A stretch of DNA of 64,000 nucleotides, taken from the IMG/VR virus record IMGVR_UViG_3300036828_000547, positions 1-64,000 of that record, one strand, 5' to 3'. Below are positions 43,134-53,423 of this stretch, one piece after another. The notes under the pieces are model-generated. The model was not told the origin of the DNA. It searched no databases and saw only the letters and a program-made list of their open reading frames with translations. The translations under genes and the position numbers were made by a program. Each line of letters begins with the position of its first letter. The first letter of the stretch is position 1. The DNA is from a virus.

Positions 43134-45134
43134 TTATTTCTTTAAGTCACCCCATGATTTACCGATCTTAATGTCTGTTAACATTGGGATAGTAATAGAT
43201 GGCACTGCTTTCTCCATTATCTCTGCACAGAGCTTGGCATGAGCTTGGTTACTGAAACTAAAGCATAATTCATCATGAACTTGCAACAGTGGTGTGAATC
43301 CTGCGTTATGAACATTAACCATCGCTTTCTTAATTTGTCGTGCAGCATCCCCTTGTATTTTTCGATTGAATGATTTGTGTGTGAATGAGCGTCTAAGCGC
43401 ACTGTTATGCCACGGATGTTCTGGATCATTAACTCGTTGTAGAGCTTCTTCATGTGAGCATGAAAATGTATCAATCTGCTTATTTGGGTATCTCTCTTGA
43501 TACCAACTGATATCAAAATTACGATATTCTGCTGGTTCCCACAAATTAAAATGACTTCGTGCTCCATCTATTAATTCAATATACCCTTGTCGTTTTGCCA
43601 TCCATGTATACTCATTATAGGCTTGACGAACAAATGGTAGTCTTTCATCATACTGTTTTAATGTAGATTCAGCCTCAGTTTCATCCATACCAGTCATCAA
43701 GGCAAACTTTCCAACACCGGCTCCATAACTGACTGCGAAGTTAACATCCTTGGCTCGTCTGCGCTCTAGACGAGTTATGGATGCTACATAATCATGAAAA
43801 TCAGTATTAGGATCATTGCGATACATATCCGCAGCTTGTTTCGCACCCCTCGCCCGTAACTTTTCAGCGACATAAACGATAAGCCGATATTCCTGTTGCC
43901 GGTAGTCAATGCTGCACCATTCCTCACCATCCTCAGGTTCAAAGCAAGATCGTATGAGCGGAGCCCACTCTTCATCCCGGCTAGGCATTTGTTGAAGTGG
44001 TGGATCAGAATAACTAAAGCGATGACTTCTTGCGCCACCACTTTCACTTCTAAATTGATTAACTGTTGGATAAACACGACCTTTATGGGCATATTCACAA
44101 ATATAGCCTAACAGAAACTTTTCTGCCAGTTCTGTATCATGTTTAATCTTGTGTATAAGCCGAGGAAATTCTTCCTTATAGCTTTCCATCACTTCCTTAC
44201 TGAAACTCGGATTGCCGCGTGCAGTTCGGAAGATTAAAATACCTCTTTTTTGAAACTGTTCAGAGAGCCATTGACTCTTACGTATTTCTTTGATTGTAAC
44301 TTTATTACCTGTTTCCCTACTGAGCTCATTTAGTTTAACTTCACAATTTGCCGATATACTCTTAGCTAATTTCCTAGCTCTATCTGTATTGACTTTCACC
44401 CCACGTTGTTTCATCTTCAGCGTGATAGGAAGTAAATCACGTTCGATTTGATATGCCTCGTCTAAGTATTCTGCTGATAACTGTGGCCGCAGCTTTTGAG
44501 CCAGACCCAATGTGCTCATTGCATCTTGTTCGGAATACGGTCCTACATATCTACCCGGTAAACGCCACAGACCCGCTTTTCCGGTGGCTGAATAAGCCAA
44601 TCCGGCTAAGTTTAATAATGATTCATCTTTACCGGGTAGTCCTTGCCATTGACATAGATTCTCTAGGCTAAATGAAAATTGGTTTTCATCTAGCATGGCG
44701 GCCATTGCTCCCGTGTCATCTAATAATTTGGGTGGCTCCAAACCAAAGGTGGCTTGAATCCATCCCCAATCGTATTGAAAATGATGGAATATAAATCGTG
44801 TTTGATTTTGTGCTCTAAGACACTTGAGCCAATCATAAACCTTATTATGATCAAAGCATTTTGTTTCTGGATGGCGTAAAGGGATATAGATTGATTGATC
44901 TCGCCATGCAGCAGATATTCCACAAATGTAACCAGTTCTTAAATTAGTTCGTTCATATTGGTGAAATCCAGGACCTAGGTCTTTGGCTAAAAGATCGTCA
45001 CGAGTCTCTGTATCAATGGCTACCTCAGTTTCCCGGCTAAGGTCAGGAAGCTGTTCTGGAGATTGCCAGTCACTATCAGGTGTAAATAAGGGAAGTTGAT
45101 CTGGTGAGGGTTTTCCCTTGCTTATTTTTGCCAT
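43134..45134 (-). CDS. DNA polymerase, family A, with 3'-5' exonuclease domain
   Basis: 666 residues; replicates the phage genome. Exonuclease: D41 and E43 (VAIDTETR) and FIFHHFQYDWGW. Polymerase motif A CSIDYRQQEYR (about 405), motif B RRRAKDVNFAVSYGAGVGK (about 470), motif C LLQVHDELCF (about 620). No 5'-nuclease domain, as in most phage family A enzymes. GGGGTGG precedes ATG 45134. The leader of its mRNA contains structured element B. Confidence 0.93.
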   Translation of the reverse strand: MAKISKGKPSPDQLPLFTPDSDWQSPEQLPDLSRETEVAIDTETRDDLLAKDLGPGFHQYERTNLRTGYICGISAAWRDQSIYIPLRHPETKCFDHNKVYDWLKCLRAQNQTRFIFHHFQYDWGWIQATFGLEPPKLLDDTGAMAAMLDENQFSFSLENLCQWQGLPGKDESLLNLAGLAYSATGKAGLWRLPGRYVGPYSEQDAMSTLGLAQKLRPQLSAEYLDEAYQIERDLLPITLKMKQRGVKVNTDRARKLAKSISANCEVKLNELSRETGNKVTIKEIRKSQWLSEQFQKRGILIFRTARGNPSFSKEVMESYKEEFPRLIHKIKHDTELAEKFLLGYICEYAHKGRVYPTVNQFRSESGGARSHRFSYSDPPLQQMPSRDEEWAPLIRSCFEPEDGEEWCSIDYRQQEYRLIVYVAEKLRARGAKQAADMYRNDPNTDFHDYVASITRLERRRAKDVNFAVSYGAGVGKFALMTGMDETEAESTLKQYDERLPFVRQAYNEYTWMAKRQGYIELIDGARSHFNLWEPAEYRNFDISWYQERYPNKQIDTFSCSHEEALQRVNDPEHPWHNSALRRSFTHKSFNRKIQGDAARQIKKAMVNVHNAGFTPLLQVHDELCFSFSNQAHAKLCAEIMEKAVPSITIPMLTDIKIGKSWGDLKK

Positions 45135-48098: not shown

Positions 48099-48533
48099 TT
48101 AGTCTTCCATTCTTGAGTGATGACCTCCATCTTCCGGTGTCCCAGGTCTATTCTGCTCTTCTGTAGCCAGAGCAAGGATTTTTGTAAGAATCTGGTGAGC
48201 ACCTTTCAGTGCCCTTTCATTTTGGTATGTACACAGTATGAATAAATATCGCTGCTCTAATTGGCTTAGATTGTTTGCTTCTGCGAACCGGTTAAGCTCC
48301 ATGTCTATCTCAACATTGTTTCGCTTAACATCGTAAGTTGCAACCTCAATCAATTTATCTAGATAATGCATTGCTTTCTGTAGATCTTGGACTCCAAGTT
48401 TCTTACGCCATCTAGCAACATGCTTGGTCGTACATCCCTCTAGGTAGCCTAGAGGGATTTTCACGCATAGATCCCAATGTTGGTATGATGTCTGATAATG
48501 ATTTCCACCAACTTGACTTTCATTCGCTGGCAT
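48099..48533 (-). CDS. DUF3310 (SaV-like) protein
   Basis: 144 residues from ATG 48533 with GGGAG upstream. VGGNHYQTSYQHWDLCVK, LGYLEGCTTKHVARWRKK and GVQDLQKAMHYLDKLIE are the defining blocks of DUF3310. The family is common in phage replication regions and is sometimes labelled a nucleotide kinase, without a proven reaction. It overlaps the HD gene by 14 nt, so it belongs to the same operon as the base-modification genes. Confidence 0.8.
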   Translation of the reverse strand: MPANESQVGGNHYQTSYQHWDLCVKIPLGYLEGCTTKHVARWRKKLGVQDLQKAMHYLDKLIEVATYDVKRNNVEIDMELNRFAEANNLSQLEQRYLFILCTYQNERALKGAHQILTKILALATEEQNRPGTPEDGGHHSRMED

Positions 48534-49125
48534 TTGGTTTCTCCCATTTCTCAATAAACCACCAGTCTTCTTCCATTCCATACACAAAGGCTGTAGGACA
48601 CTGTCTAAAAAATAACTTCAACCTAAGCGCGACATATCCTGCTAAACGAGGGCTGGGTGAGCTTTCATACACAGATTTGAGACATCTGTTGGCAATAATA
48701 AATCCATGATTATTGCCTATTGTGACTTGATCTAAACCAAACTCTGCCATTTCTACAAGTTCAATCTGTTTAAAGAATGCCTTATCAGTATCTGATAAGA
48801 CTGTTTGTCTAAAAGAATTCCAGTACTCCATCTGGGTAGCTTGAGATTTTAATTCTAAAAATTCCATCTGTTCCTTTAGTACAGGATTATCCCGCTTAAC
48901 CGGGTATGGAATATCTCCGGTAGAATGTTCTCCTATATCGTGGAACATAATATGCTGAATCATGTGTAGATCTGGTGTATTTGTAATACTAAGATAGATT
49001 CGTAAGATCTGCCAGCAGTGTTCTGCGACAGACTGCTGACCCACAATCGGCCAAGTGTGGTATCTACGAATCTGACCAGCTAATCGGATATCTAGACGTA
49101 CACATTCATCATCATTTTCTGACAT
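48520..49125 (-). CDS. HD-domain nucleotidase (YfbR-like)
   Basis: 201 residues from ATG 49125 (GGAGAGG upstream). SVAEHCWQ (H36), FHDIGEHSTGD (HD 62-63, E66) and IPYPVKR match YfbR-type 5'-deoxyribonucleotidases that dephosphorylate dNMPs. In this operon it could lower the pool of normal dTMP or dCMP, so that modified nucleotides are used. That last step is inference. Overlaps both neighbours. Confidence 0.8.
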   Translation of the reverse strand: MSENDDECVRLDIRLAGQIRRYHTWPIVGQQSVAEHCWQILRIYLSITNTPDLHMIQHIMFHDIGEHSTGDIPYPVKRDNPVLKEQMEFLELKSQATQMEYWNSFRQTVLSDTDKAFFKQIELVEMAEFGLDQVTIGNNHGFIIANRCLKSVYESSPSPRLAGYVALRLKLFFRQCPTAFVYGMEEDWWFIEKWEKPNASE

Positions 49126-50131
49126 TGCGCCTCTCCAACCATTCACGACCAGCTTGTTTCCAGTCTGGAGCAGATACTGCTTCAACAACATCTAAAGCGT
49201 CTACCATCTTTCCATTTTTATATAGGTGATGTGCCATAGCCATTCTGAGGACTACTTCACGTAAAAACGTATTCGAAATATTTCCATCGTATATTTGCAG
49301 ATCACCATGATGCATCGCATCTACAAAGGCCATGATCTCTAATAGTTCTTCATCGAACACTAGAGGACGCTCTATCAATGGTAATTTCGGGCCATAGACA
49401 CTGGTATCTAAAAGATGGTAGTCTAATCTATCATTGATCATGTCTTTATTTAGACGCTTCTGTAAAAGTTCAATATGGTCCGTATACAAATGTAGATTAG
49501 TTGTAATCTGCCAATACTCACCAATATCAACACCAATTCTACTGGCAAGATACTCTTGTAAGATTGGAAAATGGACTGCATTCGCACCACAACATCCCCA
49601 CATCAAATCGTTAGAACGATTAAATACTACCATGTTTAGTTTACGATCCATAATCCTGAATGTGACAACAAGATTACATGGCACGGCAGAATAAGCTCTT
49701 AAGTCATCTCTACCTGCTCCCCACATTTGTAGAACCATTTGCCGGGTGGAGGGATTCTTCCGAAGCTGGTTGACGATATTATCCAACTGGTTGTATCCTA
49801 GACCATATCTCCATCTTTGCCCATAGGCATCCATCACAATACCATTGGTCGCAAACATCTTACTAAAATATGAAATGTAATTATCCAGGAATGCCCCGTC
49901 ATCCCTCCCGGCTAACATCCACATGGCTTCCATTAAATGGAAGAATGGATTGGCATCTCGGACCGGGTTTAATAAGACATGTTCTTTGGGATATGTATAA
50001 CGGATTGTAACGGGCTCAGGAAATACCAGTGCTTTTCCAATTCTGGTATCTTCTTCTACGCCATGGTCTAGAAGAAGTCCTACAGCCGCTGGAAAAGCAT
50101 CACGGAGATTATTAGCATTGATGACGTGCAT
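49112..50131 (-). CDS. Thymidylate synthase family enzyme, possible dUMP hydroxymethylase
   Basis: 339 residues. I start at ATG 50131 (MHVINANN) because AGGAGG sits 7 nt before it; an upstream ATG would place this site inside the coding region. Catalytic cysteine C152 in YSAVPCNL, RSND (172-175), and N184 in CCGANAVHF, the position where synthases and dUMP hydroxymethylases have Asn and dCMP hydroxymethylases Asp. The usual APVAV-like synthase C-terminus is missing; the tail is a charged helical extension. With the two genes upstream this favours 5-hydroxymethyl-dUMP synthesis, but plain dTMP synthesis cannot be excluded. Confidence 0.85.
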   Translation of the reverse strand: MHVINANNLRDAFPAAVGLLLDHGVEEDTRIGKALVFPEPVTIRYTYPKEHVLLNPVRDANPFFHLMEAMWMLAGRDDGAFLDNYISYFSKMFATNGIVMDAYGQRWRYGLGYNQLDNIVNQLRKNPSTRQMVLQMWGAGRDDLRAYSAVPCNLVVTFRIMDRKLNMVVFNRSNDLMWGCCGANAVHFPILQEYLASRIGVDIGEYWQITTNLHLYTDHIELLQKRLNKDMINDRLDYHLLDTSVYGPKLPLIERPLVFDEELLEIMAFVDAMHHGDLQIYDGNISNTFLREVVLRMAMAHHLYKNGKMVDALDVVEAVSAPDWKQAGREWLERRNVRK

Positions 50132-50960
50132 GTTTGCCCTCCTCATATGCTTTTTGCCATTGAACCATTACATCAGAACGCTCTTCCATGTCCTTCCAGA
50201 CTGACCCAGCAGTTTTGGTAACAAGAGTCACATATTCAGGGTGATACTGTTGAAGTTGTTTTGCGGCTTGTGTCTGCATCTCTTCAGTCCGATATTTACT
50301 ACATCCACCTTTCGCACCACTGCCACGTTGATTCCAAACGTATTGATATGATACACGGTTTGGATAACCTTTACGCAAGAGTTGCAATGTCAGGTCAAAA
50401 TCTTCCATAACCGGGATACGGCCAAACTCGACGCCTAACTCCTGCAATGCCTGAACATCATAAGCGTAGGCATTCATCATGCGGGTAACATCACGATACG
50501 GTTCTGGGCCTAAGAAATGATTGCTACCTTGCCGTGCGGCGAGGCCAATATGAACAAATCCTTCTGCCAGCCATTGTTCAAGTCGTAGAAACATAGCCTC
50601 TAAACGTTTAGAATCTTTTATTGTTTCAAGAGCAGGATCACTCATGATAGGTCTATAACAAAAATCCATGTCATCATCTAACATCAATATATGCCGTTCT
50701 CCACGGGATGCAGCATACTCTGTCATAATCCATTTGCGGGTGTGCGAAATGCCATAATGTTCATTAGGCACGTAAGCATCTGTTAACTTTAACATCGGAT
50801 TCTCATCTCTTATAAAGTTAATATTGTTGATATAACTAATCCGTTCATTTCTGGGAATGCACAGCACAACCTCACGCTGTGACTTCATATCAATGAAATT
50901 ACGCACTGTCACCTGTTCTTTCCAGTGCCCTCTACCACTGCTAGGAATGCAGATTAACAT
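50112..50960 (-). CDS. TET-associated-type glycosyltransferase (TAGT)
   Basis: 282 residues; AAGGAG precedes ATG 50960. Begins MLICIPSSGR, then YGISHTRKWIM and HILMLDDDMDF (DDD at 95-97), EFGRIPVMEDFDLTL and NQRGSGAKGG. This order (IPS-x-GR, GI-x-x-TR-x-W, MLDDD, MEDFD) is the pattern I know for glycosyltransferases linked to modified bases in phages. It would add a sugar to hydroxymethylated bases. Overlaps the thymidylate-synthase-family gene by 20 nt. Confidence 0.75.
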   Translation of the reverse strand: MLICIPSSGRGHWKEQVTVRNFIDMKSQREVVLCIPRNERISYINNINFIRDENPMLKLTDAYVPNEHYGISHTRKWIMTEYAASRGERHILMLDDDMDFCYRPIMSDPALETIKDSKRLEAMFLRLEQWLAEGFVHIGLAARQGSNHFLGPEPYRDVTRMMNAYAYDVQALQELGVEFGRIPVMEDFDLTLQLLRKGYPNRVSYQYVWNQRGSGAKGGCSKYRTEEMQTQAAKQLQQYHPEYVTLVTKTAGSVWKDMEERSDVMVQWQKAYEEGKHARHQC

Positions 50961-50970
50961 ACCTCTCTCC

Positions 50971-51867
50971 TTAGATATGACGGAACACCTGCCTTGGACG
51001 ACCTATACCTAACCGAGTCTTTTCATACTTGCTAAACTCACAACAATGGTTTTGTGTATCCTGACAATGGAATGGCCCTAGATCCTTTAGTGCTTCGTTT
51101 TCTCGCAGATTTAAACATTGAATTTCGACTTGCCACTCTTTCTCATTCCAATGTGTAGCCATAAATCGATTGAGTACAGCGTTCAGACCTTTCTGGCTAC
51201 CCGGTCCCGGTGCCGCCCATGTCCACCAGTCCTCAACTTCACGCATGAATGGCAAATATTTCAGGTCTGCTACAAGTTGAGCAGCCATGAATGGACCTAG
51301 TCCATTACAGTCTTCACGAAGCCAATCGTACATCTGTTGTAGTGTTGGCGGGGTCTCCAGTAACCATTCTTTCCATTGCTCCTCCCATGGCTTCTTACAC
51401 CATTCATGGAAGTAACAGACAACCCCGACACCCTTATCGTGACCCGGCTTTCCATTTATAATGAATGCTCCTGTCACATGTGGCGTTGGAATCTTTTCTA
51501 AGCACTCAAGCAAAATTCTTATATCTCTATTGCCATCAATGTATCGTTCGAATACTGATTTCCCCCCAAAGTCTGGTTCATTAAATAAAGCATCACAAGT
51601 TGATATCCTATTGAACCACCGATAAAGGACTGTTGCCGGGAGAACCCACGCATCGTCTTGGGTGTAGGGGTTACGTATGGTTTTCTGATAATGCAGAGAA
51701 GTACGGTCTCGTTCCCGGTAAATATCTGTGAAGCGATAAAACTGTAAGATTCTATCTTCTGTCCAAGGCCAAGGCTCGCCACCAGTCTTTCTATGATATA
51801 TCTCATTTCTCTCGCGGATGAACGCGATATACCGATCGAATGGGTCTTCGATGTCAGTGATACTCAT
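50971..51867 (-). CDS. Thymine-hypermodification-type helical protein (HMUDK-helical/aGPT-Pplase/ADDT group)
   Basis: 298 residues, all helical, start overlapping the helicase stop (ATGA). FIRERNEIYHRKTGG, PWTEDRILQFYRFTDIYRER, VLYRWFNRIS, GLGPFMAAQLVADLKYLP, DWWTWAAPGPGSQKGLN and HCCEFSKYEKTRLGIGRPR fit proteins annotated as DNA base hypermodification proteins: 5-hmdU DNA kinase helical domain, alpha-glutamyl/putrescinyl-thymine pyrophosphorylase or amino acid:DNA transferase. I cannot separate these three by eye. No P-loop is present, so the kinase itself is not here. Confidence 0.8.
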   Translation of the reverse strand: MSITDIEDPFDRYIAFIRERNEIYHRKTGGEPWPWTEDRILQFYRFTDIYRERDRTSLHYQKTIRNPYTQDDAWVLPATVLYRWFNRISTCDALFNEPDFGGKSVFERYIDGNRDIRILLECLEKIPTPHVTGAFIINGKPGHDKGVGVVCYFHEWCKKPWEEQWKEWLLETPPTLQQMYDWLREDCNGLGPFMAAQLVADLKYLPFMREVEDWWTWAAPGPGSQKGLNAVLNRFMATHWNEKEWQVEIQCLNLRENEALKDLGPFHCQDTQNHCCEFSKYEKTRLGIGRPRQVFRHI

Positions 51868-53423
51868 TCGAACAGCCTCTCAAAGTGATATCGTCTATCT
51901 GGATGTACAAGGATAAGATCTTGATATGTCCTAGTCACACCGGTATAGAAAACCCTTGTTTCTTCGTCCATATTACCAGTCCCAAATCTTTCTGCTGCCT
52001 TGGCAGTATCTGAGAGCAAGATGACCTTGTCAGCTTGCCCTCCCTTAACGCGATGGATAGTAGAAATATGTACTGAAGGAATCTGTAAAAGTGAGTTGCC
52101 ATTATTCAAAACCTTTTCTATATATTCAACATCTCTTTGTTCTATTTCTACAAAAGCTTCTTGCCATGTTCCCTGAGCCAGTAGGCCATAATCTCGTCTT
52201 AATTCGTGTAGTGTAACATCAATTGTTTCACTTTGTCCAGCTAGACGTTTCAATCTAGCTTTATGACCATAAGCAACTCCCGGTTTTTTCTTACTTGGGT
52301 TTCCTTCACCTGGAAGTAGCTCATAAATTTTGAGAGCATCGGTCGCTGGTATAGTCTTACCTTCGTGTAGATCAACCCAAGCTGTGATTGCTCTGGCATA
52401 GGTTGGTTTGATACTATTAGCATCAAAATAACGATATAGAATACCTTGACTACGGCAATATGGAATGAACTTCCGTCGTAATGATTTTACAGTACGCCCC
52501 AGCATCATCACACTCTTGCCAGAGTCTAAGATACTTGGGTCTAATTGTGATATGCCCTCTAATGTACTGCAACTACCCTCGGCTGATCGAGGGAGCCAAT
52601 GCTTTTCACGGCGATTGTAGATTTTACTAATCATACGATTAGCTAACTGATGAACAGTTGTTGGAACCCTATAGCTTTGTTTGAGAACAGTGACTTGACC
52701 GGGTAACGAAATAAACCGCGTACTCGCTCCGGCCCAAGTAAAGATTGTTTGGTCATCATCACCAGCCACGTACATTCGTTTAACGAATCTTGCTAATTGT
52801 TCAACCATCAACCATTGCAACTCACTCAAATCTTGTGCTTCATCAACAATAAGAACTTCTAGGCGTGGTGGGTCATCTATTTTAATAAACTCTTCTAGCA
52901 TATCAGTAAAATCAAGCAATTGTCGCTCTGTTTTATATTGCCTGAACTCTTTGATTATTCGTTGTGCGCGCTCAAAATCTGGTACAATAAAATCATTCTG
53001 TAACAATACAGCATCTACTGATTGTCGGGTAATACGGGCAAAGTTTTCAAAGAATAAAACTAAATCATCTCCATAGAAATTCGTATAAGTACCATCGTCA
53101 GATGATAAGCTGCCACGAATCTCGTATCCATACTCTTCACCAAACTCCTGCACTTTTCTACCGGTAAAAACCTGATTAGTGTTGAGACCTAGTTGTCTGA
53201 ACGCTGCTGAGTGCAGTGTGTTGAAATACCGAAACCGGCTGCGGGGTAGCTGAAATCGTTCACTCGCACGAGTGATGGCTTCCTCTACACCGCGCTTTGT
53301 GAATGTCATGAACCCTATGTGATCTGGTGGGATACCGCGGTCCATTTCCATGTCCACGGTATCCAACAGAGTTGTGGTTTTCCCGGTGCCGGGGGGACCG
53401 ACGAATATGGTGGGTTTTATCAC
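51864..53423 (-). CDS. UvrD/PcrA-like superfamily 1 helicase
   Basis: 519 residues from GTG 53423, which overlaps the stop of the small gene before it. Walker A GPPGTGKT (9-16), motif Ia TFTKRGVEEA, DEAQ (194-197), GDDDQTIFTWAG (221-232), motif VI FYTGVTR (about 492-498). A replication or recombination helicase. Shorter than bacterial UvrD (about 720 aa), the common phage form. Confidence 0.88.
   Translation of the reverse strand: MIKPTIFVGPPGTGKTTTLLDTVDMEMDRGIPPDHIGFMTFTKRGVEEAITRASERFQLPRSRFRYFNTLHSAAFRQLGLNTNQVFTGRKVQEFGEEYGYEIRGSLSSDDGTYTNFYGDDLVLFFENFARITRQSVDAVLLQNDFIVPDFERAQRIIKEFRQYKTERQLLDFTDMLEEFIKIDDPPRLEVLIVDEAQDLSELQWLMVEQLARFVKRMYVAGDDDQTIFTWAGASTRFISLPGQVTVLKQSYRVPTTVHQLANRMISKIYNRREKHWLPRSAEGSCSTLEGISQLDPSILDSGKSVMMLGRTVKSLRRKFIPYCRSQGILYRYFDANSIKPTYARAITAWVDLHEGKTIPATDALKIYELLPGEGNPSKKKPGVAYGHKARLKRLAGQSETIDVTLHELRRDYGLLAQGTWQEAFVEIEQRDVEYIEKVLNNGNSLLQIPSVHISTIHRVKGGQADKVILLSDTAKAAERFGTGNMDEETRVFYTGVTRTYQDLILVHPDRRYHFERLFE

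Follow-up and report, generated by a model that had tools for sequence, protein, structure and literature searches.

Several phages (M6 and PaMx11, also ViI, phiW-14 and SP10) hypermodify thymidine, and the DNA of M6 contains bases derived from 5-hydroxymethyldeoxyuridine (5-hmdU) (PMC6449724). The same paper, from 2019, states that no phage had been reported to contain glucosylated 5-hmdU (PMC6449724), and a paper from 2026 leaves open the modified target of 288 phages that carry a solitary TAGT glycosyltransferase (PMC13216743). Here we describe a locus of the virus record IMGVR_UViG_3300036828_000547 where a TAGT gene lies between the genes for a helical protein (HMUDK_hel, PF18723; termed hel below) and for a hydroxymethylase-type homologue of thymidylate synthase (TS), and which probably directs the kinase-free synthesis of a glycosylated thymine. 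All positions refer to the window, i.e. the whole stretch of DNA that was analysed (positions 1 to 64,000 of a record of 78,660 bp).

The loci of M6 and PaMx11 share with this one the hydroxymethylase family, hel, an HD-domain phosphohydrolase and a small gene, and the order hel-(..)-hydroxymethylase-HD-small gene-polymerase is the same. They differ in that TAGT stands between hel and the hydroxymethylase in our phage, and in what is found upstream of hel, which is ADDT (amino acid:DNA transferase, PF18724), a FAD enzyme, a GNAT protein and a P-loop kinase in PaMx11, and ADDT, a PLP enzyme, a radical SAM (rSAM) enzyme and a kinase in M6, all of them absent here. The 5-hmdU DNA kinases of these two phages (PaMx11 gp49, L003:6414-6983; M6 gp54, L004:4719-5282; L numbers denote the loci compared) are named “terminase small subunit” in public records, a misannotation that is spreading.

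The hydroxymethylase, TAGT and hel genes

An earlier note on this DNA had described three adjacent leftward genes, and open reading frames (ORFs) are found exactly there on the minus strand: the TS homologue at 49112-50146 (start probably at 50131), TAGT (282 amino acids) at 50112-50960 and hel (298 amino acids, “aGPT-Pplase1”-type) at 50971-51867, the first two overlapping and the last two separated by 10 nt. The family assignments were upheld by Pfam, with all three proteins above the curated cut-offs (PF00303, 2.8e-26; PF20691, 8.3e-15, 55.7 bits against a cut-off of 27.5; PF18723, 1.2e-38, 133.6 bits against 25 over residues 10-284); the corresponding PHROG matches are phrog_5131 (1e-92), phrog_842 (2e-40) and phrog_2396 (5.4e-51). 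The note had allowed that profiles might place the helical protein outside the hypermodification families, and the outcome was in its favour. An assignment of hel as ADDT was rejected, as the protein matches PF18723 and not PF18724.

The closest named relatives of the TS homologue are PaMx11 gp51 (40%) and M6 gp58 (38%). It keeps the catalytic set C157, R177, S178, D180, H219 and Y221, with Cys157 as the nucleophile and R177, S178 and D180 forming the Arg-Ser-x-Asp phosphate/base site; the Cys152 and Asn184 of the note are the same residues as Cys157 and Asn189, counted from the second ATG (50131), where the homologues start, instead of the first. The usual synthase C-terminus is indeed absent, as the Pfam TS match covers the model no further than position 226 of its 266. 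The counterpart of Asn189 in E. coli TS is Asn177, a position where CMP and dCMP hydroxymethylases have Asp, as exemplified by the CMP hydroxymethylase MilA; in T4 gp42 this loop is shorter by one residue and likewise contains an Asp. The Asp expected of a dCMP hydroxymethylase is not found here, and 89 of 90 hydroxymethylases from TAGT loci likewise have Asn. The substrate is therefore expected to be dUMP and not dCMP.

TAGT contains the motifs IPSSGR, GISHTRKW, MLDDD and MEDFD, just as the note had listed them. The DDD at residues 95-97, an Asp-rich motif of the metal/donor type, is invariant among 25 homologues, and the AF2 model (pLDDT 93) has a GT-A fold, with metal-dependent GT-A enzymes (LH3, SpsA, TarP) as Foldseek matches (E about 1e-6 to 1e-5); the T6 TAGT is likewise GT-A (PMC13216743). 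A sequence search of solved structures with the TAGT profile gave no significant match. Sugar genes accompany TAGT in relatives, where it is overlapped by a GDP-mannose 4,6-dehydratase gene (7e-107; L023) or adjoined by genes for a nucleotidyltransferase (NTP_transferase; L054), a NAD-epimerase (L037) or an FkbM methyltransferase (L018). A radical SAM-SPASM enzyme also recurs in hel loci, mostly in those with TAGT (L019, L024, L050, L069, L112, L125, L129).

Residues R20, R51, D54, F193, D201, G221, G223, C276, E277 and K280 of hel are unchanged across partner classes and are kept even in cellular homologues without a nearby hydroxymethylase; P222, between the two glycines, also counts among the invariant residues. 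The fold of the AF2 model (pLDDT 92.5) matches phiW-14 C9DG43, a phiRSL1 protein and part of the SP10 “5-hmdU DNA kinase” (637 amino acids), with weaker matches to amino acid:DNA transferases and to a halovirus EndoIII (E 0.13, prob 0.97). HhH-GPD glycosylases (EndoIII, Ogg, MUTYH, OGG1) top the list of solved structures, but with E-values of at least 0.56, and the layout GxGxF...D201/D213 resembles these glycosylases as judged by eye. No match was obtained when hel was aligned with E. coli Nth (endonuclease III) by hhalign (0.1%), and none of significance when its profile was searched against the sequences of solved structures. Cellular contigs (candidate phyla radiation, archaea, Sphingomonas, Streptomyces) also contain hel-like ORFs (L184, L186, L196, L200, L228 and about 50 other GTDB loci), which occur without hydroxymethylase, TAGT or kinase and keep most of the invariant residues, D213 being present in only 53%. 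The aGPT-Pplase domains have been predicted to be defence domains (PMC13092281).

Enzymes absent from the genome

Because its ends carry near-identical direct repeats of 141 bp (139/141 identical), the genome is probably complete and not a fragment. It holds exactly one TAGT and one TS homologue. The observation of the note that the window has no kinase extends to the entire 78,660 bp: a 5-hmdU DNA kinase was not found in the whole genome by tblastn with the M6 and PaMx11 enzymes, by a P-loop scan, or with our own and Pfam hidden Markov models (HMMs), where PF18748 had no match at E<=10 and our own kinase HMM reached a best E of 0.42. Apart from helicases and terminase, the genome has no kinase-like ORF with a P-loop. 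PF18724 (ADDT) matched neither in the hel scan nor anywhere in the genome at E<=10, and the PLP, rSAM, FAD and GNAT tailoring genes of the classical pathway were not found in it by tblastn or our own HMMs. A TET/JBP dioxygenase and a T4-type AGT or BGT glucosyltransferase were likewise not found in the whole genome.

Two other features of the genome were recorded. The region at 65.2-66.1 kb (L002:2200-3100) consists of low-complexity GC-rich repeats with long ORFs overlapping on both strands, and a 578-amino-acid protein (L002:9177-10913) has an AEP-TOTE primase-like match at the cut-off.

Partners of hel in other phages

Relatives of hel and TAGT were collected from IMG/VR, and relatives of hel from GTDB genomes, and their neighbours were scored with our own HMMs. 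Among 79 viral loci selected by hel, 23 have TAGT, 9 a kinase and/or ADDT, 47 neither, and none both. In the 70 loci selected by TAGT, hel is present in 59, hel together with the hydroxymethylase in 58, and kinase or ADDT in none; the GTDB loci include 4 with TAGT and 10 with kinase/ADDT, again without overlap. When lineages are defined as clusters of hel at 70% identity, 46 of 86 have TAGT, 17 kinase/ADDT, 23 other neighbours, and none both. The three genes occur together in most hel+TAGT loci, usually less than 100 nt apart, and no hel-TAGT fusion ORF was found in the loci. A scan of whole records detected PF18748 or PF18724 in 0 of 37 other hel+TAGT records (that of the cultured phage LuckyBarnes included), as against a kinase in 10 and ADDT in 11 of 12 comparison records. 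The comparative evidence for a kinase-free hel/TAGT set is strong at the level of sequence. The pairing of glycosyltransferase and helical protein pointed out in the earlier note is well supported, but it is not the curiosity of one phage, being present in about 96 of the collected loci (46 lineages). No description of it was found in the literature that was searched, which did not cover Iyer 2013, Lee 2018 and Lee 2022.

In the hel tree, the TAGT label requires 18 changes, of which strongly supported branches impose at least 9, and sister lineages may have different partners (a kinase in L081, TAGT in L054). Hence hel and the hydroxymethylase are retained while the tailoring enzyme is exchanged. 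The two form a shared core to which different tailoring enzymes can be added, so that hel, in spite of its name, cannot be dependent on the kinase. Kinase-less hel accounts for the majority of the sampled lineages that are linked to a hydroxymethylase.

For the amine branch of thymine hypermodification ADDT is needed, and in the phages characterised so far a 5-hmdU DNA kinase as well. As neither is present in the genome or in the 37 whole hel+TAGT records, a sugar is far likelier than an amine, although both had been considered in the note. The product in this phage is probably a sugar-bearing thymine derivative.

Further neighbours were seen in the collected loci. Loci with hel and hydroxymethylase that have neither kinase nor TAGT (L038, L043, L046, L060, L068, L090 and about 15 others) carry, immediately upstream of hel, a gene resembling class I SAM methyltransferases (279-312 amino acids), which may represent a further tailoring branch. 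Candidates for GT-B/GT4-like glycosyltransferases are located between hel and the hydroxymethylase in loci with or without TAGT (L049, L051, L056, L061, L070, about 445 amino acids; L062, L069, L024), but only the 445-amino-acid one has a Pfam match. Microbacterium phage Golden (L252) has hel and a kinase-like gene, with a ThyX annotation and no ThyA-type hydroxymethylase.

Neighbouring genes

While all three genes of the proposed operon are present, the module is larger than the note had assumed, as two further genes on the minus strand belong to it. An HD-domain (YfbR-like) phosphohydrolase at 48520-49191 (PF12917, 9.4e-8; PF13023, 2e-7; start codon uncertain) is found in the same place in PaMx11, M6, the Manatee Spring phage and most loci compared. 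The small conserved gene at 48099-48587, a homologue of PaMx11 gp53 and M6 gp61 (DUF3310-like; tblastn 1e-18 to 8e-21, no Pfam match at 1e-3), also keeps its place in related loci. Both outer neighbours are encoded on the same strand and are conserved in related loci: a UvrD/Rep-family helicase at 51864-53423 (PF00580, 8.1e-25), which overlaps hel by 4 nt, and, downstream, a family A DNA polymerase at 43134-45134 (PF00476, 8.2e-44). The helicase is taken as a replication neighbour and is not assumed to participate in the chemistry.

Proposed pathway and alternative explanations

We consider it likely that the operon yields a glycosylated thymine and needs no kinase for this, in that dUMP is hydroxymethylated, 5-hmdU enters the DNA, and TAGT attaches a sugar directly to the hydroxyl. 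The TS-family protein would, by homology, hydroxymethylate dUMP, the HD phosphohydrolase would presumably lower the competing dTMP/dTTP pool, and host kinases together with the phage family A polymerase would put 5-hmdU into the DNA, replacing T partly or completely. TAGT would then move a sugar from a nucleotide sugar straight onto the oxygen of the 5-hydroxymethyl group of 5-hmdU within DNA, with no phosphorylated intermediate; family, fold and the neighbouring genes in relatives point to an O-glycosyl-5-hmdU, similar to base J, as the product. In a third, hypothetical step hel may recognise or flip 5-hmdU in duplex DNA and hand it to, or select it for, the tailoring enzyme, as a core part common to the kinase/amino-acid pathways that needs no phosphorylated base. 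This chemistry is predicted; gene identities and order, the genome-wide absence of kinase, ADDT, TET, AGT and BGT, the recurrent exclusive pairing and the partner swapping are directly established. The interpretation of the earlier note as a whole is partly supported, with thymine hypermodification through 5-hmdU well supported.

Several points weigh against this pathway. A hydroxymethylated rather than a methylated product is something we infer from homology and the missing C-terminus, and the role of hel in recognising, flipping or selecting 5-hmdU is a guess. The characterised TAGTs, those of T2 and T6, put a second sugar on hydroxymethylcytosine (hmC) that is already glucosylated, and not a first sugar on hydroxymethyluracil (PMC13216743). 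Because no nucleotide-sugar gene was recognised in the phage genome, the sugar donor would be a nucleoside diphosphate sugar of the host. A divergent kinase could have escaped detection, and host genes could contribute. The hypergeometric value for the exclusivity of partners (2e-7 for the 86 lineages) is optimistic, as the lineages are related and the sample was partly chosen by TAGT; for the hel-selected sample alone the value is p=0.04.

The presence of hel, whose family is named after the 5-hmdU DNA kinase, adjoins that kinase in PaMx11 and M6, and shares its fold with part of the SP10 enzyme, might be taken to indicate the classical pathway of phosphorylated 5-hmdU and amino acid transfer, with a host or unrecognised kinase, and TAGT glycosylating the product or left-over 5-hmdU. 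We regard this as improbable, given the lack of PF18748 and PF18724 here and in the 37 other hel+TAGT records, in comparison with their near-constant presence in the 12 comparison records, and given that, apart from helicases and terminase, no kinase-like P-loop ORF is present. A T4-like cytosine pathway, with the TS homologue as dCMP hydroxymethylase and 5-hmC as the base glycosylated by TAGT, would fit the annotation of phrog_842 (beta-glucosyl-HMC-alpha-glucosyltransferase) and the glucosylated hmC substrate of the T2/T6 enzymes (PMC13216743). It is very unlikely in view of the Asn at the base-reading position, the nearest hydroxymethylase relatives, which come from 5-hmdU phages, the absence of AGT and BGT, and hel, a member of a thymine-pathway family. 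Least credible is that the TS homologue is an ordinary synthase, TAGT has a target other than DNA and the gene order is incidental; phages do commonly cluster TS, HD and replication genes, but this leaves unexplained the missing TS C-terminus and the close co-occurrence of hel, TAGT and hydroxymethylase in many phage lineages, and M6, with 5-hmdU derivatives in its DNA, has a single annotated TS near hel.

The main rival to base recognition or flipping by hel concerns the third step only and is compatible with a sugar product: hel may itself catalyse the addition or exchange of a group, either on 5-hmdU or on the base once it is glycosylated. Absolute conservation of the polar residues R20, R51, D54, D201, C276, E277 and K280, in all partner classes and in cellular homologues, and the fold shared with amino acid:DNA transferases speak for catalysis, but hel has no recognised cofactor motif and no profile match to known HhH-GPD enzymes, and its matches to solved structures are not significant; we view this as possible but rather unlikely. 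The target of hel should be 5-hmdU in DNA (or else the nucleotide pool or the finished DNA) and not a phosphorylated base, as 5-hmdU is the substrate common to the kinase and TAGT pathways. The function assigned to it as “helical domain of the kinase” needs revision, since phages lacking a kinase use hel too. As a tentative generalisation, about which we have more doubt than confidence, PF18723 proteins might be general base-flipping or base-selecting enzymes for 5-hmdU-DNA, being neither kinase domains nor thymine pyrophosphorylases, and might form the fixed core to which phages add exchangeable tailoring enzymes (kinase plus ADDT, TAGT, GT-B glycosyltransferase, methyltransferase), and the glycosylated 5-hydroxymethyluracil so made might be a widespread phage base.

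Comparison with known systems

Judged from its genes, the system would be a kinase-free, glycosyl branch of the known thymine hypermodification, widespread in dozens of phage lineages. For a large part of the solitary-TAGT phages this offers a specific answer, with 5-hmdU as the substrate and hel as the partner, and such bases are relevant to restriction and glycosylase-based defence.

The T-even phages (T2/T4/T6, with the TAGT of T6) resemble it in using a pyrimidine hydroxymethylated before replication, a glycosyltransferase acting later, and the TAGT family, but there the base is cytosine, read by an Asp, AGT or BGT is needed first, and hel is lacking. Bacillus phage SP-15 also places a sugar on a thymine derivative (dihydroxypentyluracil), and its genome combines glycosyltransferases with sugar-nucleotide genes (PMC5977210); its sugar is on the 5-dihydroxypentyl chain, and the gene cluster is a different one. 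Base J of kinetoplastids (beta-glucosyl-5-hmU, made by JBP and JGT) is, like the predicted product, an O-glycosylated 5-hydroxymethyluracil, but originates by oxidation of T within DNA by TET/JBP enzymes, whereas the phage has no such gene and hydroxymethylation is predicted to occur at the nucleotide level. The Manatee Spring phage (MW202897) has TAGT, hydroxymethylase, HD and small gene in the same order as here, but no hel within the 22.7 kb read. Brevibacterium phage LuckyBarnes combines a TS homologue, two TAGTs and hel, and like our phage has no kinase or ADDT; its order is TS-TAGT-TAGT-hel, and its hel is a distant one. As LuckyBarnes is cultured and carries the kinase-free set, the proposed pathway is testable there.

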